NCBI GenBank assembly: GCA_007135115.1
Contig: SLJN01000011.1
Coordinates: 1-34,145 of the forward strand
DNA: 34,145 bases
Source: Balneolales bacterium
GTDB taxonomy: Bacteria > Bacteroidota > Rhodothermia > Balneolales > Natronogracilivirgulaceae
Direction of reading: 5' to 3'
This document shows, in pieces, positions 3,801 to 23,876 of the stretch. The notes under the pieces are model-generated. The model did not search any database and was not told the DNA's origin. It was given only the letters and a program-made list of their open reading frames with translations. Both the position numbers and the translations under genes were made by a program. Numbering within the stretch: position 1 is the stretch's first letter; each line of letters opens with the position of its first letter.

Positions 3801-6800
3801 TCAGTAATCGAAGCGCCACATCAGATCGACACCGCTGCGGTAGTCGTCGCTTGCCGTGAGGATGAGTTCGAGATTGGAGCGGATCAGGTATTCAATGATA
3901 ACCTGCCGGCCGGCCCGGGTTCCGCCGAGCTCCTGAAGGTAGGCTACAAACAGTCGATCCGTTAAAAACGTACCCGCTTTGATACTGGTACCACCGCCGG
4001 TGCTCCGCCGGGAGTTGTCGATTTCAATGACATCGATTCCCAGACGAGCGGCGGCAAGAGCTTCCACCCGATCAAGCAGGATATCCAGAGCGATATCGGA
4101 GGCGATATTGGCCTCACCGCGACCGGAAACCGTTCGTTCCCAGCCCGCAAGAGATTCAAAGGGTCGGCCAAAGAGGGTATAGCTGATGATATCCTGAAAC
4201 TCCATTTCAGGTTCGCTCTCATACGTAAAGTCCGGTTCTTCGACCGTGCCGGAGATCACGTACCAAATGCGAATATCTTCGGCTTGTTGCCGCGGGCGGT
4301 AGAGCGCCCGGATGTCCAGCTCAGGATTCATAGCATCGCCGCTGAACAGTATGGCTCCGCTGTCAATGTCAAAGCGTTTGTTGAGGATGGTGGTAACGTG
4401 ACCGGAGGGGATATTCAAATCGCCGAAGACTTCGAGGTCTTCCATGTGTGATTTTACGATTTCAAGATCTCCGCGTAGCGCCAGATTCATCTCAGGATCC
4501 CTGCGGTTACGGAGAAATACGTTGCGATCCATGGAAATCGACATCTCAATGGCCAGGTTATTAAAGAAGTCGATTTGTTCAGCAGCTTCGAGTATCTCCT
4601 GATCGTCATCAAGCTCAACATCCTCTACGGTACGTTCTCCGAAGTTATCCAGATAAAGCGTCCCGCGGTCCACTCTGAAATCACCGGTAATCGAAGGTTG
4701 CTCCAAGTCTCCGGTGATACGGGTATTCAAACTGACAAAAGCTTCGATATCTCTGGTGTTGAAGGCTCTGAAATTGCGTCCGTTTATTCTGAGATTAAAA
4801 TCATCCGGGGTAAAACCATCCAATCCAATGGTACCCGAGCCGGATACCAGGCCATTGCTTCGGGCCTGGAAAGACTCCAGCGTTAGCTTTTCGGGATCCA
4901 GCCCTAAAAACAGCTGAATATTGGATAGCCGGACGTTGTTTTCAACCAGAAAAGCCGATCCGCCGGTATAGTTGATGTTTCCGTCGAGATCAGGGTCGGC
5001 GATGGTACCGGTGATATCGATATCGGCATTGAGGCGACCCTCAAGATCTCTAATGAGGTTGGCAGGCAGAAAATCATTAAATGCCGCCATACGGAAATCC
5101 GTAGTGGTCAGGCTGAATGACAGCTCATCGTCTTCATCGGGTACATCTACCGCAAACCTTTGGAAATCGGCATAGAACGGTAAACTTCCTTCGAGATCAG
5201 CCACGCGCTGGCCAAGGGATTCAACATTAGACCGGATGCTGATTTCTTCAGCGGCATGTTCGTAGTCCCATGCAAATCTCAGTGAATCTACAGCGATGTC
5301 GGATAGGGTGGCATCATACAAAATCATATCGCCAAAGAATTTAGGCGAGCCGGCCGTACCGGAGAGGTCGGTGTCCATCGCTAAGGTACCTTGCTGCTGA
5401 CCGATGCCGGCTTTTTCCATGAAATCATGAAATCGGGAAATATCGACCGGGTCAATCGTGAGGTAGCCCTCTACGTGTTCTTCGAAAAACGATTCATCGA
5501 GCTCTTGAGGGGCAATGGGTTCGAAGGGAAGGTCAAACCGGGAGTCAGCAAGTCGCTCGCCTTCATCTTCTACGAAGAATTCCGTGTTGAGTCTTTGATC
5601 TTCAATATCCAGTTGTAAACTCATCAAATCCAGCGTAAGCTGATTGTAGTAGAAGTCAGTCAATCGGATATCGGAATGTACTTCGATGTCCTCACCGTCC
5701 AGGCGGAAGTCGGTTTCACCACTGAGCAGACCTTTAAAAATCGGTTCATCAATGAATGCACTTTGGATGACCCCGAGGTCAGCCCGCTGGCCGTCTAAAT
5801 ACCCGGTCATAACCCCGGTGGTATCCTGATTGAAGGCCATGGATAAAGTAGATTCGTCGTCCGAAGCCAATGTAAGGGTATCCAAAGTGATGCCTTGGTC
5901 ATCGAAGGTAAAATCAAACGGATCTTTGAGCCGATACTCAATAGAGGGATCAAAAATCGAAAGGAGAGAGGTTGTCAGTTTTAAATCACCGTCTGCAAAA
6001 TCATAAGCGGCTTCCTGGGCGAGTCCGCTTTCATCACTAATATTAAATTCAAAACGATAATCTCCGGCTACCAGCCCTTCATCGATGCTGCCTGCTGTAG
6101 ATATATTCAAGTCCTGAACGCCGAATGAGCCCAGGCGTGGTGATAAAAACTCAATATCGGCATCGTAATCCGGTCTACGGGTCAGACCCGAATGTGCTCT
6201 GCCGTTGACTTCATCCACAAACAGCGTATCATAGACCACATTGCTAAGATTTAACTCGCCGTCAAACGACAACTCCTGATTATCATCCTGTTCTATCATA
6301 CCGGCCATGGTTCCGGTCGCCGATAAGGTATCCGCACCGGCGATTTCGGCAAACGGCTGAAGGTCTTTGACTTCCAGATCGAAATTTAACCGATTGGCCA
6401 GATCGGTGTAATCCAGTAGATTGTATCGTGCGGTAACACTCGCATCAGCGATGCTGCTGGAGAAGTAGGATTCATCAACCGTTAAAATGGTGTCGGCTAT
6501 GGTAAAAGAGGATGAAAGTGCCTCAAGTGCACGGCCGTCGAGTTCGGAGCGGCTCATATCAAGTTTACCGGTCAAATCAAGATCTTCAATGGAGATCCCG
6601 CTGCCTTCGGCCTCAAAATTAAAATTCAGGTCACTGGGCAATTCTTCGAGCATCGAAATCTGAGAAAGATCGAGGTTGGTTACCTCCGATTGCAGTGCAT
6701 AGGTGATCGGATCATCCTGCCAACCTGACTCAAAATGGGTGGTCAGCATCCCTCTGGCCAAACGCATTTCGGCATCGGCCTCTACATAATCCTGATCCAG

Positions 6801-10431: not shown

Positions 10432-11319
10432 TTAATTGAAAACCGTGGGGGGCTCTCCTTTGATTTTTGCTCCGAAATCGACTTCGTCCATTTCAACGGG
10501 AAGCTGTTCGATAATTTCATCAAGGGTGTCTTGCATATAATCGGCCAGTCGCTGGTGTTGCGTGAAGTCGGGGTCGCTTTCGGCTACTTCTTCGTTTACT
10601 ACGAATGTAGCCAATATCCCCGTACCGACATAAGGGTGATCTTTAAATGATATGTGAGCATCTTCTTTCCAGTTAAAACCGGACAAGCTCAAGAAAGTGT
10701 TGTAGTCATCCCGGAATTCATCCGTCGCAAGATCCAGTCGTTTGAGCAGAAGCTCCATCGTGGAGACCGTTGAAGTTGGGGCATTGAAATCAAAATGCTC
10801 AAATGATTCTCCATCATCCCGGTTCGGAATGAGATAACGGGCATTTTGGAGGTTGCTTAAAACATTTTCTCCGGTTTCGCGAGTGGTGTCGATCGCTACA
10901 AAGAAACCGAGGGAATCCGCCCTGGGCGAGTATTTTTTGACTTCGTTGATAAACATCCTCCCGAGACGGTAATGTTGTTGTTGATCAGGGTCTTGATCGG
11001 AGACTTCTTCATCAACCGAAAAAAAGATGGTAATGCCTTGATCGTGCTGTGGTGTAGGATATAAATGTACTTCAGCCTGATCGGGAAGGTCAAAGGATTC
11101 GGGCTCCCAGTATTCAGCGTAAATATTGTTGAGCCGGGGTAATAAGTATTTCAGTCGCTGTCTTTCGATGCTGACCATAGACAACTCGGCTTGTCCGCCT
11201 TGAGCTTCCAGTATCTCATAGGGGTCGAAAGGATCTGGAGGATCATCAGTGTAATCCAACGATGATACGAGTATCCCTGAAAAAATTAGCCCTGAGAGAA
11301 ATATATATAGCTTCAACAT
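10432..11319 (-). CDS. Uncharacterised exported protein with two internal repeats
   Basis: Hydrophobic N-terminus. Residues about 83-142 and 222-284 share the pattern GI..FxVxEEV...DPD..QH.RL. Confidence 0.7.
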   Translation of the reverse strand: MLKLYIFLSGLIFSGILVSSLDYTDDPPDPFDPYEILEAQGGQAELSMVSIERQRLKYLLPRLNNIYAEYWEPESFDLPDQAEVHLYPTPQHDQGITIFFSVDEEVSDQDPDQQQHYRLGRMFINEVKKYSPRADSLGFFVAIDTTRETGENVLSNLQNARYLIPNRDDGESFEHFDFNAPTSTVSTMELLLKRLDLATDEFRDDYNTFLSLSGFNWKEDAHISFKDHPYVGTGILATFVVNEEVAESDPDFTQHQRLADYMQDTLDEIIEQLPVEMDEVDFGAKIKGEPPTVFN

Positions 11320-12666: not shown

Positions 12667-13479
12667 ATGCGTTCAAAAAAAACTTACCTCAAAATTAGCG
12701 CTATCGGACTAGCCGTGATTTTAATGATGACGGGCTTGAAAGGCTGTTTTTCCTTTGACCAGGCGGCGCGATCAGCAGTAGATCAGGCAATTGGTGCCGC
12801 TGTTGAGCGGGAGTTGGAGGCGATGCTCTACGGGTATACTGATTTAATGTTGTATCAGCTGGCGTATACCCAAATGTTTCATATCGGAGGATACGGGCTC
12901 CATCACGATGAATTTGAAGAAGGCCAGGGTGCCGTTTGGCGCATGGTAGCCATCGAAGATGATGAACGAACAACATTTACAGCTGAGCGGGCATTACTGA
13001 GCCGCGAAGATGATGGCTCAAGCTGGTGGTTTTTAAAATATACTCCGGAAGATGCCGAAACCATCGAGTACGAAATTTTGGTCGATCGCGATCTGAATGC
13101 ACGTGAGATGTATCTGAAAGACCCGGAAACCGATGAAATTCGTCATCACCGCTTTACCGGCGATGAGCAAGAGGAGCAAGAGCGGCGTGAAGGAGAAGAA
13201 TCACTTGAGGAAGCCGGATACCACACCGAATCGTTTTATCCGGAAGACCGGGATGAGTACCGAGTTGACCGTGAGACAGTTACCATTGGTGCCGGATCTT
13301 TCGAAACAGAAGTGCTTTATCATGAAGAAGACGGCTTTGAGTACACCTGGTGGTTATCAGATACTGTTCCGGGTCAACTGGTGAAGTATTTGTTTAAGGA
13401 CACCGAATCCGGAAGCACCTTCGAAGGTGAAATGATGGAAATGCGGGATGATTACGGATTCGCGCTGCGCGGCGTTTAA
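12667..13479 (+). CDS. Putative lipoprotein of unknown function
   Basis: N-terminal signal followed by lipobox-like LKGC. Highly acidic remainder without a recognised domain. Confidence 0.65.
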   Translation: MRSKKTYLKISAIGLAVILMMTGLKGCFSFDQAARSAVDQAIGAAVERELEAMLYGYTDLMLYQLAYTQMFHIGGYGLHHDEFEEGQGAVWRMVAIEDDERTTFTAERALLSREDDGSSWWFLKYTPEDAETIEYEILVDRDLNAREMYLKDPETDEIRHHRFTGDEQEEQERREGEESLEEAGYHTESFYPEDRDEYRVDRETVTIGAGSFETEVLYHEEDGFEYTWWLSDTVPGQLVKYLFKDTESGSTFEGEMMEMRDDYGFALRGV

Positions 13480-13807: not shown

Positions 13808-13814
13808 GAAAATG

Positions 13815-13898
13815 TGCCCTGGACTGGATTCGAACCAGCACGGCCTTGCGGCCACTGACCCCTCAAGCCAGCGCGTCTACCAGTTCCGCCACCAGGGC
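13815..13898 (-). tRNA. tRNA-Leu (anticodon GAG)
   Basis: Reverse complement GCCCTGGTGGCGGAACTGGTAGACGCGCTGGCTTGAGGGGTCAGTGGCCGCAAGGCCGTGCTGGTTCGAATCCAGTCCAGGGCA: 7-bp acceptor stem, class II long variable arm, anticodon loop TTGAGGG, GGTTCGAATCC T-arm. CCA not encoded. Confidence 0.95.
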
Positions 13899-14177: not shown

Positions 14178-14208
14178 TTTAAGTAGCCAACCCCCGCGAC
14201 GATAACTC
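14178..14208 (+). promoter_or_regulatory. Sigma28 (FliA)-type promoter of flagellin 1
   Basis: TTTAAGT-N15-CGATAACTC. Fits the TAAAGTTT-N11-GCCGATAA class and is shared with flagellins 2 and 3 at identical spacing. Confidence 0.75.
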
Positions 14209-14277: not shown

Positions 14278-15138
14278 ATGGCTTTTGGTGATTTTAATCG
14301 CATTAATACCAATCTGTCTTCGCTGGATGCCCAATTCAGCTTAAATCAGGTTAACAGGGATCTGGGAGAAAACCAGTTACGCCTTTCTACCGGTAAGCAA
14401 ATCAACAAAGCAGAAGATGACGCCGCCGGTTTTTCTATCGCTTCTAAACTCGGTGCTCGTATTGCCGGACTGGAGCAAGGACTGCAAAACGCCGGGGATG
14501 CCAAATCCGTTTTGGATATTGCCGAAGCAAGTTTTGATAACATCACGGATATACTTACCGAGATCAAAGTCAAAGCTACTCAGGCTGCTAACGACACCTA
14601 TGGTGATGAAGAGCGTGAATTTATTCAGCAACAAATAGATTCGCTTACTGATGAGCTTGATAGTTTAGTCGATCAAACCGTATATCAGGAAATACCATTA
14701 TTGGACGGTTCCTACGAAGCCTCTTTTCAAGTAGGAGAGAGAACCGACGATGTGCTCGATGTTGAGATTTCACAGGATGGTGACGGCTTTTATGCCGAAG
14801 ATCTTGGGCTCGATGAGCTTTTTGTAACCGATGACGGCTCTGAGGATGCGGCTCACGATAATGCTCAACTAACCATGGAAGCCGTTGACGACGCTCTTAC
14901 CTCAGTTGCGTCTGTAGTCAATGACATCGGAATTTACCAAACCCAACTTTCTATCAGGGAGGAAATTCTGACTCAGGCTGTCAATAGTAACGAAGCTGCA
15001 CAGAGCCGAATCGAAGATGCCGATTTTGCCGCAGAGCAAAGTGATGCTGTAAAGAATCAGATTCTCCAGCAGACAGCTACATCCTCCCTGGCTCAGGCCA
15101 ATCAAGCCCCGGAAGCCGTATTAGGATTTTTAGGATAA
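14278..15138 (+). CDS. Flagellin 1
   Basis: N-terminal RINTNLSSLDAQFSLNQVNRDLGENQLRLSTGKQINKAEDDAAGFSIA and C-terminal SRIEDADFAAEQSDAVKNQILQQTATSSLAQANQAPEAVLGFLG. Confidence 0.97.
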   Translation: MAFGDFNRINTNLSSLDAQFSLNQVNRDLGENQLRLSTGKQINKAEDDAAGFSIASKLGARIAGLEQGLQNAGDAKSVLDIAEASFDNITDILTEIKVKATQAANDTYGDEEREFIQQQIDSLTDELDSLVDQTVYQEIPLLDGSYEASFQVGERTDDVLDVEISQDGDGFYAEDLGLDELFVTDDGSEDAAHDNAQLTMEAVDDALTSVASVVNDIGIYQTQLSIREEILTQAVNSNEAAQSRIEDADFAAEQSDAVKNQILQQTATSSLAQANQAPEAVLGFLG

Positions 15139-15331
15139 CCTTTAACTGAGGGATAAACGGGAAGAGCGGTCCCGGTTATCATAAAAACCTCAAAACCGAG
15201 CCTGGTCAGCTCAAAACGATTCTGTTAAAACAAGCAGAAGAGGAGCGGGAGATCAGCGAAGCGACCGACCGACCAACCGCTCATCCTACTCTGACTTCCT
15301 GCTCTTTCGTTCTTACTCTTACTGCTTACAT

Positions 15332-15538
15332 AAAAAGAAGAGCGTCGTTGTAGTGGTTATCTCCAAGCCATGGTCACGTGCTTCATTTTTTCCACTCTTC
15401 TCGCTCTTTCTTTTTATATTTTTCAGAAGCCGCAACGTCGGCTCACAAATGATCTCCAAAGCCATGGTCACGTAAGTTTTTGGGGAGTTTGTGCACAAAA
15501 AAGGTCACTTCGGATCCGCTCCGGGGTGGCCTTTTTTT
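15332..15538 (+). ncRNA. Candidate antisense sRNA with two flagellin-start-complementary stem-loops and an intrinsic terminator
   Basis: Stem-loop 1: AAAAAGAAGAGCG (15332-15344) pairs with CGCTCTTTCTTTTT (15402-15415), inner AGTGG/CCACT, loop region holds ATCTCCAAGCCATGGTCACGTG (15359-15380). Stem-loop 2: CACAAA (15444-15449)/TTTGTG (15488-15493) plus CTCC/GGAG, holding ATCTCCAAAGCCATGGTCACGT (15452-15473). Terminator 15497-15538. No clear promoter; the 5' end is unknown. Confidence 0.5.
15497..15538 (+). terminator. Intrinsic terminator
   Basis: AAAAAAGGTCAC-TTCGGATCCGCTCCGGG-GTGGCCTTTTTTT: strong stem followed by a U tract. Confidence 0.85.
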
Positions 15539-15649
15539 ATTTGCGAACAGAAAAGGCGGTTCAGCAGATTTTTTTCATTGCTAAGGCTATGAATACAAAA
15601 GCATTAAACAGATTTAGGATTACTCAATTTAATAATTTTTGAAGAAAAA

Positions 15650-15680
15650 TTTAAAAAATGTAAACCATGGTCGATAACTC
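15650..15680 (+). promoter_or_regulatory. Sigma28 (FliA)-type promoter of flagellin 2
   Basis: TTTAAAA-N15-CGATAACTC, same spacing as flagellins 1 and 3. Confidence 0.65.
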
Positions 15681-15727
15681 TTTTGGTCGAAGAGCAGGAA
15701 TGAGTTATTAACCTAATTTACAACATC

Positions 15728-16597
15728 ATGTCTTTTGGTGATTTAAATCGAATAAATACCAATTTACAGTCTCTGGATGCTCAGTTTTCGTTGAATAAAA
15801 TCAACAGAGATCTCGGGCAAACGCAGCTTCGTCTATCGACTGGGTTGCGAATTAACAGGGCTGAAGATGATGCCGCCGGTTTTTCTATAGCATCCAAACT
15901 TGGAGCGCGAATTGCCGGATTGGAGCAGGGGTTGCAAAATACCGGAGATGCTAAGTCGGTGCTTGATATAGCCGAAGCAAGCTTTGATTCTATAATAGAT
16001 ATCCTTACAGAAATGAAGGTCAAAGCTACGCAGGCAGCCAATGACACGCTCGGTACCGATGAACGCGGTTTTATCCAGCAGCAAATCGACTCCCTTGAAG
16101 GGGAATTGGATGCCCTGGTGGATCAAACCGAGTTTCAGGGTGTTAGTTTGTTAGACGGCTCCTACGAGGCGAGCTTTCAGGTTGGGGAGCGAACCGAGGA
16201 TGTCATTTTTGTAGACATTCAGAATGAAGACGGGCCTGCAGATGGTTTTAATGCCGAAGGACTCGGTGTGGTGGACCTTTCAGTAACGGAAGACGGGGAT
16301 GAGGATACTGCTCACGAGAATGCTCAGGTTGCAATTGCAAGTATCGATGATGCATTAACCAATGTGGCAAGTGCGGTAAATAAACTGGGTATTAACCAAA
16401 CCCAGTTGACGATACGTGAGGAAATACTTTCCCAGGCGATCAACAGCAACAGCGCCGCTCAAAGTCGTATCCAGGATGCTGATTTCGCCGCCGAGCAAAG
16501 CGAAGCAATTAAATTGCAGATTTTACAGCAAACAGCAACTTCTGCATTAGCCCAGGCCAACACCGCACCACAGGCTGTACTCGGGTTTCTGGGATAA
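15728..16597 (+). CDS. Flagellin 2
   Basis: Conserved flagellin N- and C-terminal D0/D1 sequences. Confidence 0.97.
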   Translation: MSFGDLNRINTNLQSLDAQFSLNKINRDLGQTQLRLSTGLRINRAEDDAAGFSIASKLGARIAGLEQGLQNTGDAKSVLDIAEASFDSIIDILTEMKVKATQAANDTLGTDERGFIQQQIDSLEGELDALVDQTEFQGVSLLDGSYEASFQVGERTEDVIFVDIQNEDGPADGFNAEGLGVVDLSVTEDGDEDTAHENAQVAIASIDDALTNVASAVNKLGINQTQLTIREEILSQAINSNSAAQSRIQDADFAAEQSEAIKLQILQQTATSALAQANTAPQAVLGFLG

Positions 16598-16621
16598 TTT
16601 CTGAAAATCTACCCTTTTTAT

Positions 16622-16662
16622 AAGGTCATGGCCATCTGTAGGTTATGGCCTTTTGTTTTTTT
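16622..16662 (+). terminator. Intrinsic terminator after flagellin 2
   Basis: AAGGTCAT..ATGGCCTTTTGTTTTTTT stem-loop with T tract. Confidence 0.75.
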
Positions 16663-16698
16663 GGGAAGGGTGATTTGAGAAAAAAAATGATAAAAAAG

Positions 16699-16729
16699 TT
16701 TAAGTCGGCAATCCCTTGAACGATAACTC
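16699..16729 (+). promoter_or_regulatory. Sigma28 (FliA)-type promoter of flagellin 3
   Basis: TTTAAGT-N15-CGATAACTC. Confidence 0.75.
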
Positions 16730-16781
16730 TATCGGTCGCCAGAGTAGGATCGAGCGAACAACATAAAGTTCGGAGTGCATT

Positions 16782-17648
16782 ATGTCATTCGGAGACTTAA
16801 ATCGCATTAATACTAACTTACAGTCACTTGATGCTCAGTTTTCGCTCAATCAGACAAACCGGGACTTAGCTGAAACACAACTTCGGCTTTCCACCGGTAA
16901 GCAAATAAACCGCGCAGAGGACGATGCTGCCGGATTTTCCATCGCATCGAAACTCGGCGCGCGAGTAGAAGGCCTTGAGCAAGGCTTGCAAAACACCGGA
17001 GATGCTAAATCGGTATTGGATATTGCCGAGGCCAGCTTTGACTCCGTCATCGATATTCTCACAGAAATGAAAGTTAAAGCTACTCAGGCTGCGAATGATA
17101 CCTACGGCGAAGAAGAGCGTGGGTTTATTCAACAGCAATTAGAAGCACTTTCAGATGAATTGGATTCAATCGTCGAACAAACTGAATTCCAGGAGCAAAA
17201 TCTTTTGGATGGTAGTTTTGATGCCACCTTTCAGGTTGGCGAGCGAGTTGATCCGGGTGGAGAAGAAGATGATACCATCAATGTTACTATAGAGCAGGAT
17301 GGTAGTGGATTTGATGCTGAAGACATGGGAGTAGATTTCCGTGATGATCTCGATGTAGACAATCATGATAACGCTCAGGAAGCTGTTGAGGCAGTAGACA
17401 ATGCACTTACATCAGTAGCTGAAGCCGTGAACACGATCGGTATTAATCAGACTCAGCTTACGATTCGTGAAGAAATTTTGACTCAGACCATCAACAGTAA
17501 CGAAGCGGCTCAAAGCCGAATCGAAGATGCTGATTTTGCTCAAGAGCAAAGTCAGGCGACCCAGTTGCAAATTCTGCAACAGACGGCTACAGCTTCCCTG
17601 GCCCAGGCCAATCAGGCGCCTGAGGCCGTATTGGGATTCTTGGGATAA
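16782..17648 (+). CDS. Flagellin 3
   Basis: Conserved flagellin termini. Confidence 0.97.
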   Translation: MSFGDLNRINTNLQSLDAQFSLNQTNRDLAETQLRLSTGKQINRAEDDAAGFSIASKLGARVEGLEQGLQNTGDAKSVLDIAEASFDSVIDILTEMKVKATQAANDTYGEEERGFIQQQLEALSDELDSIVEQTEFQEQNLLDGSFDATFQVGERVDPGGEEDDTINVTIEQDGSGFDAEDMGVDFRDDLDVDNHDNAQEAVEAVDNALTSVAEAVNTIGINQTQLTIREEILTQTINSNEAAQSRIEDADFAQEQSQATQLQILQQTATASLAQANQAPEAVLGFLG

Positions 17649-17704
17649 TCCGTTCATCAGCGATTATCCGATTACCTCTTTGACAATTGAACAGATTCGG
17701 GTTA

Positions 17705-17743
17705 CGGGAAAGGGCTTCGGCTGCTTTCCCGTCTCCTGTTTTT
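17705..17743 (+). terminator. Probable intrinsic terminator between flagellins 3 and 4
   Basis: GGGAAAG..CTTTCCC stem-loop around GGCTTCGGCTG followed by GTCTCCTGTTTTT. Confidence 0.55.
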
Positions 17744-17771
17744 AAATAAAAACCCAAAAAACCACGTGACC

Positions 17772-18698
17772 ATGGCTTTTGGAGATTTAAACCGAATCAA
17801 CACGAACTTGCAATCACTGGATGCCCAGTTTAGTCTGAATCAGACCAACCGGGATCTTGCTGAGACGCAGTTACGTCTTTCTACCGGTAAACAAATTAAC
17901 CGCGCAGAAGACGATGCTGCCGGATTTTCCATCGCATCGAAACTCGGCGCGCGAATCGAAGGCCTTGATCAAGGCCTTCAAAATACCGGTGACGCTAAAT
18001 CCGTACTGGACATCGCAGAAGCGAGTTTCGACTCCATTACGGATATTCTTACCGAACTGAAAACCAACGCTACCCAGGCCGCCAATGATAGCCTCGGCAG
18101 TGATGAGCGAGAATTCATCCAGCAACAGATGGATAGCCTTGTCGAGGAATTGGATTCATTGGTAGAGCAAACCGAATTTCAGGGACAAAACCTGCTGGAT
18201 GGCGAATTTGATGCTACGTTCCAGGTAGGTGAGAGAACTGCTGATGAGGATGAAGGTACTGACGGCGATGTAATCAATGTTCAGATTAATCATGACGATG
18301 ATTCCGGTTTTAGTGGTGAAGGCTTAGAGCTTCATGACGGAGACCTGGGTGACTCAGTTGATGATGGCAACCGAGCACTTTGGGTAACCGAAGACGGGCC
18401 GGAAGATACTGCTCATGAAAATGCCCAAGCAGCAATTGAAGATATTGACGATGCATTGACAACCGTAGCCTCTGCGGTTAACTCTATCGGGATTAATCAA
18501 TCACAGCTTACGATCCGCGAAGAAATCCTGACACAATCTATCAACAGTAATGAGGCTGCTCAAAGCCGCATTCAGGATGCTGATTTTGCAGCGGAGCAAA
18601 GTGAAGCAGTGAAATCCCAAATCCTTCAGCAAACCGGTATCTCTGCATTAGCGCAGGCTAATCAGGCGCCGGAAGCTGTACTCGGATTTCTCGGATAG
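17772..18698 (+). CDS. Flagellin 4
   Basis: Conserved flagellin termini. The ATG at 17772 (MAFGDLNR, as in its paralogs) is preferred over the in-frame GTG at 17766. Confidence 0.97.
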   Translation: MAFGDLNRINTNLQSLDAQFSLNQTNRDLAETQLRLSTGKQINRAEDDAAGFSIASKLGARIEGLDQGLQNTGDAKSVLDIAEASFDSITDILTELKTNATQAANDSLGSDEREFIQQQMDSLVEELDSLVEQTEFQGQNLLDGEFDATFQVGERTADEDEGTDGDVINVQINHDDDSGFSGEGLELHDGDLGDSVDDGNRALWVTEDGPEDTAHENAQAAIEDIDDALTTVASAVNSIGINQSQLTIREEILTQSINSNEAAQSRIQDADFAAEQSEAVKSQILQQTGISALAQANQAPEAVLGFLG

Positions 18699-18702
18699 TA
18701 GC

Positions 18703-18730
18703 GAATAGCTCAAATGAGCTATTCCATTTT
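18703..18730 (+). terminator. Hairpin after flagellin 4 (possible terminator)
   Basis: GAATAGCTCA-AA-TGAGCTATTC perfect 10-bp stem, followed by a short T run (CATTTT). Confidence 0.5.
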
Positions 18731-18812
18731 AAATCAGAGCTTTGCTGTAGCATTTATAGCTGCAGCACTGCTCTGATACCAATGTTGTAATACAAACCAA
18801 AACCACGTGACC

Positions 18813-19745
18813 ATGGCTTTTGGAGATTTAAACCGAATCAATACGAACCTGCAGTCGCTGGATGCCCAGTTCAGTCTGAATCAGACGAACCGCCAGCTTG
18901 CAGATACCCAACTGCAGCTTTCTACCGGCAAGCAAATCAACCGGGCGGAAGACGATGCTGCCGGATTTTCCATTGCTTCCAAACTGGGAGCACGTGTCTC
19001 AGGTTTGGAGCAGGGACTTCAGAATACCGGCGACGCTAAATCCGTACTGGACATCGCAGAAGCGAGTTTCGACTCCATTACGGATATTCTTACCGAACTG
19101 AAAACCAATGCTACCCAGGCTGCCAATGACAGCCTCGGCAGTGATGAGCGCGAATTCATCCAGCAACAGATGGATAGCCTTGTGGAGGAATTGGATTCAC
19201 TGGTAGAGCAAACCGAATTTCAGGGACAAAACCTGCTGGATGGCGAATTTGATGCTACATTCCAGGTAGGTGAGAGAACAGCTGATGAGGATGAAGGTAC
19301 TGACGGTGATGTAATCAATGTTCAGATTAATCACAACGGTGAATCCGGTTTTAGTGGTGAAGGCTTAGGACTTCATGACGGTGATCTTGGTGACGCAGTT
19401 GACGAAGACAACCGTGAACTTTGGGTAATCGATGATGATGAGGCCCCCGGAGATAGTGCTCATGAAGCTGCTCAACAAGCAATAGCCGATATAGATGAAG
19501 CATTGACAACCGTAGCCTCTGCAGTTAACACTATTGGGATTAATCAGTCACAGCTGACGATCCGCGAAGAAATCCTCACGCAATCCATCAACAGTAATGA
19601 GGCCGCTCAGAGCCGTATTGAAGATGCCGATTTTGCAGAGGTTCAAAGCGAATCCGTAAAAATGCAAATTCTTCAGCAGACCGGTATCTCTGCATTGGCC
19701 CAGGCCAATCAGGCTCCCGAATCTGTTTTCGGGTTCCTTGGCTAA
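18813..19745 (+). CDS. Flagellin 5
   Basis: Conserved flagellin termini. Middle section nearly identical in nucleotide sequence to flagellin 4. Confidence 0.97.
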   Translation: MAFGDLNRINTNLQSLDAQFSLNQTNRQLADTQLQLSTGKQINRAEDDAAGFSIASKLGARVSGLEQGLQNTGDAKSVLDIAEASFDSITDILTELKTNATQAANDSLGSDEREFIQQQMDSLVEELDSLVEQTEFQGQNLLDGEFDATFQVGERTADEDEGTDGDVINVQINHNGESGFSGEGLGLHDGDLGDAVDEDNRELWVIDDDEAPGDSAHEAAQQAIADIDEALTTVASAVNTIGINQSQLTIREEILTQSINSNEAAQSRIEDADFAEVQSESVKMQILQQTGISALAQANQAPESVFGFLG

Positions 19746-20022
19746 TAAATTCTATTAGTGGTTGTAACGTGTTGATGTTAGCCATCCATTAATTTATTGA
19801 ATTTATTGGCATCGATTTAAGTGTGTCCACCGGATTCCGGATGGTTTAGTCTCCTCCATCAGGAGCAAATTCGGTTGGCTGCACTCATTTTTCTGCTTAT
19901 TCAGACAGGCTCCCGGCTGTGATAACTGGTCGGTCTTATCCGGCCGGTGGTCTGATTTTTGGATAATCGGAAAATCAAGCAAGGAACATGGACCTTGTGT
20001 AATCCAAATAAATAACAAAACC

Positions 20023-20934
20023 ATGGCATTTGGAGACTTAAACCGAATAAATACCAATCTTCAGTCCATGGATGCGAAGTTCTCGCTCGACCGGGTCAAC
20101 CGGGATTTGGGCGAGACCCGGCTGAAACTTTCAACCGGACTTCAAATTAACAGGGCTGAAGATGATGCTGCCGGGTTTTCTATAGCTTCCCGGCTTGGCG
20201 CCCGCATAGAAGGGTTAGAGCAGGGGTTACAGAATACCGGCGATGCAAAATCTGTGTTGGATATTGCCGAGGCGAGTTTTGATTCCATTATCGATATACT
20301 GACGGAAATGAAAGTCAAAGCCACGCAGGCAGCTAATGATTCTCTCGGTAGTGATGAGAGGGGTTTTATCCAGCAACAGATGGACGCCCTGGCAGATGAG
20401 ATCGACGATATTGTCGATCAAACCGAATTTCAGGGTGAAGTCCTGCTGGACGGAGACTACAGTGCTTCGTTCCAGGTGGGTGAGCGCGCTGAGGATGTTA
20501 TCAGCGTGGAAATCCAACAGGATAATGAAGATGGTTTTGCTTCTGAAGACTTGGGAGTTCATGATCTCGAAGTGGATGAACATGGCAATGCCCAGTCAGC
20601 GGTAGAAGCAACCGATGATGCCATTACTGCCGTTTCTGAAGTGGTAAATCAGCTGGGTATTAGTCAGGCTCAGTTGACGATCCGCGAAGAAATCCTGACG
20701 CAATCAGTGAGCAGTAACCAGGCAGCACGCAGCCGCATTCAAGATGCAGATTTTGCGAGCGAACAAAGTGAGGCTTTAAAGCTGCAAATTCTGCAACAAA
20801 CGGCTACGTCTGCTCTGGCGCAAGCCAACACAGCTCCTGAAGCTGTCCTGGACTTTATTACCATTAACGGTAACGGAAATGGTAATGATGACAACGGTAA
20901 TGGAAATGATAACGGTAATGGCAACAACGGATGA
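20023..20934 (+). CDS. Flagellin 6 with C-terminal Gly/Asn-rich extension
   Basis: Flagellin D0/D1 sequences. The usual LGFLG end is replaced by LDFITI followed by NGNGNGNDDNGNGNDNGNGNNG. Confidence 0.95.
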   Translation: MAFGDLNRINTNLQSMDAKFSLDRVNRDLGETRLKLSTGLQINRAEDDAAGFSIASRLGARIEGLEQGLQNTGDAKSVLDIAEASFDSIIDILTEMKVKATQAANDSLGSDERGFIQQQMDALADEIDDIVDQTEFQGEVLLDGDYSASFQVGERAEDVISVEIQQDNEDGFASEDLGVHDLEVDEHGNAQSAVEATDDAITAVSEVVNQLGISQAQLTIREEILTQSVSSNQAARSRIQDADFASEQSEALKLQILQQTATSALAQANTAPEAVLDFITINGNGNGNDDNGNGNDNGNGNNG

Positions 20935-20989: not shown

Positions 20990-21168
20990 ATTCAACTGAT
21001 TAAAGAGAGCACGGCCTGCCTTTTAAGTTTTTTAGATTTCTGTCGATAAATAATCATACCATTTCGGATCAATGACAACAAGCAAAAAATTACATCGAAA
21101 CGGTCATTTTTTCCGCCTGAGATAACAGTAATACCTTTGCAAGTGCATGTAATAAAGTGTCGTAGATG

Positions 21169-23003: not shown

Positions 23004-23405
23004 TTGATGGATAATCTGCAACGACAATCGCTGGAGTTATTGGATCAGTGCATAAGCCGCACCAGAGAGATCCTGTCGTGTTTTGAAACGGAACAGCAAT
23101 ACACGGCAGCAGATTTAAGAAAGTTGTTTTCCCGGCGTTCGGAAGAAATAAGCAGACTGTACGAACTTACCCACAGTCAGCAGTGGCAGGAAAGCAAAAA
23201 AGATGATAACTTTAAAATCATCCAACAGCGATTTCGATTACTGCAAGATTTAGATCAACTGTTACGTTCACAGTTGCAGACGCGGTACAACGAAACGAAA
23301 AACGCTTATAAAAAAGCCAGTGACGACGCCGATGCCGATAACAAATACCGCAATGTCGGCCGGCATAAATCCTCGTTATTTATAGAATCTTCTTTGAAGG
23401 GGTAA
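23004..23405 (+). CDS. Small helical protein, possible FliT-like chaperone
   Basis: 133 aa, predicted helical, positioned directly after fliD. Sequence similarity not established. Confidence 0.4.
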   Translation: MMDNLQRQSLELLDQCISRTREILSCFETEQQYTAADLRKLFSRRSEEISRLYELTHSQQWQESKKDDNFKIIQQRFRLLQDLDQLLRSQLQTRYNETKNAYKKASDDADADNKYRNVGRHKSSLFIESSLKG

Positions 23406-23408
23406 CCC

Positions 23409-23876
23409 ATGGATATACCCAACATAAATAACAATTCTCTCAACCCTCAAAATAAAGCTGATAAAGCTTCTCAGGGTGAAAAGTCCGCTAAAACGGATGC
23501 TGCGGGTAACAGCAAAAATGTGAAGCAGTCATCCTCCATTCAGTCGGATGAGCTTTCCATTAGCAAGTCCGCGAATGAGGGTGAACTTAAGTTTGCACTG
23601 GCAGAGTATCAGAAACTCCAAAAACAGTCTGTAGAATCTCTCCGCGAAATTAAGCAAAACATCGATAACGGAGTTTACGAGCAGGATAAAATTCAATCTC
23701 AGGTATCTGATCGAATACAGGGAGAAATATCGGCTGTAGAAGCCATAGAACATCAGGGAGAGACACAGAAAACGAATACGGAACTAACTCCTGAACTCAA
23801 AGACCGGTTACTCAATGATGAGTCGGTTCTGGATCAAATTTCACAGAAGTTAATTGATGATCTTTCGAGGTTGTAA
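23409..23876 (+). CDS. FlgM-like anti-sigma28 factor
   Basis: DELSISKSA...LREIKQNIDNGVYEQDKIQSQVSDRI resembles the FlgM core. Located in a flagellin operon with sigma28-type promoters. Confidence 0.55.
   Translation: MDIPNINNNSLNPQNKADKASQGEKSAKTDAAGNSKNVKQSSSIQSDELSISKSANEGELKFALAEYQKLQKQSVESLREIKQNIDNGVYEQDKIQSQVSDRIQGEISAVEAIEHQGETQKTNTELTPELKDRLLNDESVLDQISQKLIDDLSRL

Follow-up and report, generated by a model that had tools for sequence, protein, structure and literature searches.

A structured, probable flagellin 3'UTR with antisense matches to sister flagellin starts and leaders in a Balneolales flagellin array

The choice, timing and amount of flagellin in bacteria with several flagellins are mostly attributed to promoters, CsrA/FliW and secretion. 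Regulation by RNAs that derive from untranslated regions has been described in other systems. FliX, UhpU, MotR and FlgO of E. coli are sigma-28-dependent sRNAs of this origin; one of them, FliX, arises from the fliC 3'UTR by cleavage, pairs with the fliC mRNA and lowers flagellin (PMC10578931). In S. aureus, pairing of a 3'UTR motif of icaR with the Shine-Dalgarno region prevents initiation and creates an RNase III substrate (PMC3868564). OppZ, as far as its source outlines it, is a 3'UTR-derived sRNA that exerts feedback on genes of the same operon (PMC7398697). In C. jejuni, a dual-function flaA mRNA titrates CsrA through GGA motifs (PMC4894983). The initial annotation of the locus described here knew of no named system like it; FliX and icaR are precedents in kind. 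A literature search returned no paper naming both Balneolales and flagellin, and we know of no flagellar small RNA described from this group.

The window, that is, the whole stretch of DNA that was analysed, was the entire contig C119 (34,145 bp) of the 3.78-Mb assembly G000. Its closest named relatives were Balneolales MAGs. It contained six flagellin genes in tandem at 14278-20934, with fliS, fliD and chemotaxis genes downstream. A seventh flagellin gene of the same genome was located on a separate contig (C315, L076). The genes of the array and the promoter matches were as follows.

14178-14205, plus strand: sigma-28-type promoter of fla1 (TTTAA-N17-CGATAA), a pattern match presumed to drive fla1 and the 3'UTR RNA
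14278-15138, plus strand: fla1 (Pfam Flagellin_N/C)
15650-15677, plus strand: sigma-28-type promoter of fla2, a pattern match
15728-16597, plus strand: fla2
16699-16726, plus strand: sigma-28-type promoter of fla3, a pattern match
16782-17648, plus strand: fla3
17772-18698, plus strand: fla4, with its ATG at 17772 and no promoter-like match of its own
18813-19745, plus strand: fla5, with its ATG at 18813
20023-20934, plus strand: fla6
21022-21049: sigma-28-type promoter match upstream of fliS/fliD, 28 nt long like those of the three flagellin genes

TTTAA-N17-CGATAA, the spacing of which is that of a sigma-28 promoter, was searched as an exact pattern. It matched four times in the window (fla1, fla2, fla3 and fliS), compared with 0.18 matches expected, and the same search found none before fla4, fla5 or fla6. 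Several other features were observed around the array. The tail of fla6 (20860-20934) and the C-terminus of the C315 flagellin were Gly/Asn-rich (e.g. NGNGNGND...), which is unusual among flagellins. The fla5-fla6 gap contained a long imperfect inverted repeat (19889-19925 and 19936-19974) just 5' of the fla6 leader (p 9e-4). A tRNA-Leu gene (anticodon GAG; 13814-13898, minus strand) was located immediately upstream of the array, and four ORFs near the flagellar genes had no Pfam match (10432-11319 on the minus strand; 12667-13479, 23004-23402 and 23409-23873 on the plus strand).

The gap between fla1 and fla2 was predicted to fold as four hairpins followed by a terminator, with an MFE z of -5.5, which would give an RNA of about 300-400 nt with the following parts.

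15139-15540, plus strand: structured, presumed 3'UTR RNA of fla1, with a conserved core at about 15230-15540
15234-15325, plus strand: predicted hairpin 1, with the anti-fla3 and anti-fla2 segments
15330-15417, plus strand: predicted hairpin 2, with antisense site 1 in apical position
15428-15443, plus strand: predicted hairpin 3 (AGCCG/CGGCT)
15444-15493, plus strand: predicted hairpin 4, with antisense site 2 in apical position
15499-15535, plus strand: intrinsic terminator hairpin, then a T run; stem kept in the sister species G001

The element had originally been placed at 15332-15538. Its downstream boundary was retained, as the terminator ends near 15537 and is kept in the relative, but the element starts 5' of 15332 and takes in the sites at 15278-15306. 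A plus-strand RNA from this gap, as originally proposed, is supported as a reading, but a stand-alone sRNA gene appears less likely than a 3'UTR of fla1. An exact pattern search found no sigma-28-type promoter within 15139-15540, and the RNA interval contained no sigma-70-type match on the plus strand. From the fla1 stop codon (15138) to the RNA, the plus strand contained no terminator-like site. Because the interval has no promoter match of its own, fla1, fla2 and fla3 each have one, and no terminator intervenes, the interval is probably best read as the 3'UTR of fla1. An independent sRNA gene with the same targets would need its own promoter just 5' of about 15230; it would be compatible with repression, the origin of the RNA being the sole difference. 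Identity to G001 was 66% over the 90 nt that follow the fla1 stop and 88% over the core, as if the RNA began near 15230. However, the missing promoter and terminator matches argue against a separate gene, and in the relatives with 3'UTR pairing (see below) the sites are likewise found 3' of a flagellin stop codon. A separate gene is therefore considered rather unlikely.

As in a 3'UTR-derived sRNA, the RNA lies between the fla1 stop codon and an intrinsic terminator, and its complementarity to the leaders and start sites of its putative targets exceeds chance. As in FliX, and judged by sequence alone, it is part of a flagellin 3'UTR under a sigma-28-type promoter (14178-14205). A known Rfam family was rejected as the identity of the RNA, since at gathering score the window matched only a tRNA and nine related loci matched nothing. 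Hfq (PF17209) was not found in G000 (89% complete), in G001 (80%) or in G007 (92%), a genome of a second genus, and consequently no known chaperone can be assigned to the RNA.

The antisense sites within hairpins 2 and 4 and their target sites were as follows.

15359-15380, plus strand: antisense site 1 to the fla4 and fla5 start codons (direct reading, inverted-repeat search); identical in G001
15452-15484, plus strand: antisense site 2 to fla4, fla5, fla6 and the C315 flagellin (inverted-repeat search, local antisense alignment)
17753-17786, plus strand: target site over the fla4 start codon (-19..+14); G001 counterpart at L036:6106-6139
18792-18827, plus strand: target site over the fla5 start codon (-21..+14) (local antisense alignment)
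20020-20036, plus strand: weaker target site over the fla6 start codon (p 4e-3)

Direct reading and an inverted-repeat search agreed with the original description of the copies at 15359-15380 and 15452-15473 as reverse complements of CACGTGACCATGGCTTTTGGAGAT at the fla4 and fla5 starts. The target-side bulges of 2 nt and 1 nt in the fla4/fla5 pairing were found as claimed, and so was the pairing of copy 2 with fla6 (20020-20036) over 16 bp with one nucleotide bulged. The duplex of copy 2 with fla4 reached further 5' than first noted, covering 17753-17786 (~33 nt).

Pairing was scored by local antisense alignment with strict scoring, as laxer scoring had given gapped artefacts; full-length duplex prediction against each leader was set aside because the duplexes were long and uninformative. 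Against dinucleotide-shuffled leaders, the Gumbel p values were 3e-6 for fla4, 9e-7 for fla5 and 4e-3 for fla6. Specificity was assessed with a background of 143 other gene starts, taken from 20 stretches (169 kb) of the same genome. The RNA scored 55 with both fla4 and fla5, and the best background start scored 38, whereas fla3, fla6 and the C315 flagellin were each equalled or beaten by one of the 143. A search of the 3.78-Mb assembly for the core CCATGGTCACGT gave five occurrences, of which two are the RNA copies, two lie at fla4 and fla5, and one falls within another ORF. The last copy, on contig C338, was rejected as a target and attributed to chance, since it lies inside an ORF (DXR-like, by eye). 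The predicted mean unpaired probability was 0.50 for site 1, 0.31 for site 2 and 0.37 for the whole RNA. Predicted accessibility is thus moderate, and hairpin 4 would have to open for pairing at site 2.

In addition, hairpin 1 contained segments complementary to the leaders of fla3 and possibly fla2.

15278-15293, plus strand: antisense to the fla3 leader, CGCTCATCCTACTCTG; 16 bp with a 1-nt bulge, p 6e-3 and p 6e-4 in two tests
16740-16756 (-42..-26), plus strand: fla3 leader target, CAGAGTAGGATCGAGCG
15296-15306, plus strand: possible antisense to the fla2 leader (15690-15700); 11 bp, p 9e-3

The anti-fla3 site was of moderate strength, and both site and target were identical in G001. The anti-fla2 site was weak, with six of the 143 background starts equalling or beating fla2, and it was not found in G001. 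The fla2 and fla3 starts had been said to differ from the others. This holds for the fla3 start codon, which is unmatched, but the fla3 leader is matched by 15278-15293. The match to fla1, described at the outset as weak, scored 20 between the RNA and the fla1 leader. As 107 of the 143 background starts scored at least as high, the RNA avoids the flagellin gene directly 5' of it.

The comparison within the genus was made with one genome, G001, in which contig C397 (L036) carries fla1, the RNA, fla2, fla3 and fla4 and is cut shortly after the fla4 start codon. When the window was compared with G001, the RNA core was 87.6% identical, versus 76.9, 73.3 and 72.1% for the coding sequences of fla1, fla2 and fla3, respectively, and 57-65% for the other gaps. 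The DNA 3' of the terminator gave no meaningful alignment. None of the 96 consensus pairs of the predicted fold was broken; the changes were one-sided, with no double compensatory change. The terminator stem was kept through two one-sided pair changes, and its loop differed. The MFE z of the G001 RNA was -8.2, and the G001 fla4 start matched the equivalent of site 2 in its own RNA with p 3e-8. Co-conservation of the seeds with the fla4 start, named beforehand as a comparative check, was thus found in the sister species. Beyond the genus, the same RNA was absent from the 135 genomes of the order searched other than G001, with a single, chance-like match of 29 nt in G008.

In the second genus, G007 (L068) encoded four flagellins, and its fla1-fla2 gap was unrelated in sequence to that of the window, ended in a terminator and had an MFE z of -8.0. 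The G007 RNA (5524-5550) matched its own fla2 leader in two perfect blocks of 14 and 13 nt (p 4e-7). This pairing spanned -43..-3, with 14 nt of the leader looped out, and ended 3 nt 5' of the ATG. Weaker matches were obtained with fla4 (6/500 shuffles) and fla3 (42/500 shuffles), and fla1 of the same genome was unmatched. In a cross matrix, the G007 RNA scored 18-24 on the leaders of the window and G001, compared with 52.5 on its own fla2. Strong pairings were confined to combinations within a genus, and swapping the RNAs between G007 and the window genus abolished them.

Two further readings were weighed. Flagellin inversion systems exist, and the inverted repeats of the window flank fla2-fla3, so that they might be DNA recombination sites for phase variation or leftovers of an inverted duplication, in either case with no RNA function. 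However, the copies differ by indels of 1-2 nt, and those of G007 by a 14-nt gap, which makes them unsuited to strand exchange, and no recombinase was found among 20 ORFs scanned with Pfam; Hin-like phase variation by invertible DNA was rejected on these grounds. Leftovers would not be expected to exceed the coding sequence in conservation, or to give way to new complementary pairs in other genomes. Such an origin of the repeats is highly improbable. The RNA might instead be a CsrB-like sponge for CsrA, with the antisense matches secondary, as CsrA is encoded in G000, G001 and G007 and flagellin mRNA is under CsrA control elsewhere (PMC4894983). A sponge of this kind requires many exposed GGA motifs. 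The window RNA contained six GGA (four in G001 and four in G007), about the composition expectation, and none was predicted to be unpaired; the sponge was rejected as very improbable.

The class was surveyed in 252 genomes, of which 75 had flagellins, and 40 regions were fetched. In 267 tests of 3'UTRs against leaders, 23 antisense pairings were significant at p<0.005, compared with 1.3 expected; at this threshold the controls of the same survey gave two (reversed), one (parallel-complement) and three (sense). The 23 significant tests stem from 16 loci, some being one genome retrieved twice, from different collections. Most Balneolaceae arrays tested (Fodinibius, Gracilimonas and others) showed no 3'UTR-leader pairing. 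In L083 (8869-8885; contig shared with L210; MAG M1805), the fla1 3'UTR matched the fla2 leader in antisense, with 17 bp and one bulged nucleotide (p 6e-3). The leader motifs ATTGGGCAA and TTACCCAAC, which are near-complementary with one mismatch, recurred in Balneolales flagellin leaders (L069, L070, L071 and L072).

In the Rhodothermales, GGTTCTGG was present in the 3'UTR of the last flagellin gene, with GGTTCAGG in its place in one group; the complement was carried by the fla1 leader. An exact antisense 8-mer was present in 15 of the 19 loci, versus a mean of 3.2 and a maximum of 8 in shuffles. Matched partners scored above all 20000 permutations, a test that is inflated by kinship. Furthermore, a two-sided change replaced GCCAGAACC/GGTTCTGGC by GCCTGAACC/GGTTCAGGC in one group. 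A conserved hairpin presenting the motif is suggestive: predicted single folds placed the motif in a loop only in some cases, and a consensus fold of 12 hairpins gave no common pairs, the stems being too divergent to align. In L087 and L099, TTTCTCCAAAGC was located in a terminator-proximal hairpin and was antisense to the ribosome-binding region GCTTTGGAGAAACATCATG (-17..-5). This hairpin of the fla1 3'UTR, ~90 nt long, was 91% identical between the two genomes, above the identity of their flagellin genes.

The paired leader block of most Rhodothermales was located at about -60 to -20, off the start codon, with an additional block closer to the start in L106, L107, L176, L178 and L183. Since the block is upstream of the start codon, the sign of the effect could differ in these loci. 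The selected pairing might stabilise or activate its targets, through joining of the 5' and 3' ends, protection from nucleases or opening of inhibitory leader hairpins. The position of the block is in keeping with such an effect, as are the 14 nt looped out in the G007 fla2 pairing and the single-flagellin loci L190-L192, in which leader and 3'UTR of one mRNA pair with each other. However, the pairing in the window spans the start codons of fla4 and fla5, and that in L087 and L099 covers the ribosome-binding region. Stabilisation or activation is accordingly judged quite unlikely.

The pairing itself is very probably real and selected, and RNA-target pairs are conserved or replaced across the class. 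A block of initiation is the best fit for a duplex that covers the start codon or the ribosome-binding region, as in the window, L087 and L099, or that ends just before the ATG, as in G007. The reading proposed at the outset, in which a plus-strand RNA covers the fla4 and fla5 starts and sets the ratio or order of the flagellins, appears to be the best supported, given the co-conserved seeds, the G007 RNA of the same logic and the complementarity in relatives. Antisense repression of sister flagellin mRNAs, encoded in the fla1 3'UTR, is likely on this evidence. We infer that the RNA is made, acts in trans, represses its targets and has a role in filament composition.

Transcription from the sigma-28-type fla1 promoter would continue through the 3'UTR and end at the terminator (15499-15537). 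The product, a hairpin RNA of some 300-400 nt, would be stable, either as a portion of the fla1 mRNA or after being cut from it. The fla4/fla5 start region would be presented in antisense by hairpins 2 and 4 and the fla3 leader by hairpin 1, and pairing with the sister flagellin leaders may begin at these parts. Initiation would be blocked by the duplex over a start codon or leader, possibly with cleavage by RNase III. Production of fla1 would in this way repress the other flagellins and set their order or ratio. A wider generalisation is plausible but falls short of probable: throughout the Rhodothermia, one 3'UTR may serve as an antisense address book with one element per sister leader, the host gene being exempt in multi-flagellin arrays and the elements co-evolving with the leaders or being replaced with them, as an Hfq-free, RNA-only code for flagellin order and ratio.

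The locus offers a testable RNA-level answer to the question of flagellin choice, in which the message of one flagellin would be directed at the starts of the others. As a comparative case of putative RNA-RNA pairing in trans it is unusual, with pairing kept by conservation, by compensatory change and by outright replacement. Cultured relatives exist (Roseithermus, Rhodothermus-like, Gracilimonas and Fodinibius), which makes experiments feasible.

When the locus was compared with the known systems, FliX shared the origin in a flagellin 3'UTR, the sigma-28 dependence and the pairing with flagellin mRNA, features that in the window are read from sequence. FliX differs in that its pairing falls inside coding sequence, its targets include ribosomal-protein mRNAs, Hfq was part of its characterisation and it acts on a single flagellin (PMC10578931), whereas in the window several paralogs are matched by the RNA hairpins, at start sites and in leaders, and none of the three genomes checked gave an Hfq match. 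The icaR mechanism is closest to the single-flagellin loci of Rhodothermus type. It acts on its own mRNA, whereas the 3'UTR of the window matches other mRNAs; icaR-type pairing with the own leader is absent in the window, the fla1 leader being at or below background. OppZ, within the outline given by its source, shares the use of an mRNA 3' end as the source of a regulatory RNA but depends on sRNA processing by a major endoribonuclease (PMC7398697), and the putative targets in the window are separate paralogous genes. The flaA mRNA of C. jejuni is likewise a flagellin mRNA that regulates other flagellar mRNAs, but it works through titration of CsrA instead of base pairing, and the window RNA is predicted to have no exposed GGA motifs. 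The best reading is that the regulation is known in kind, from FliX and icaR, and new in form, in that a single 3'UTR would be directed at the leaders and start codons of several sister genes.
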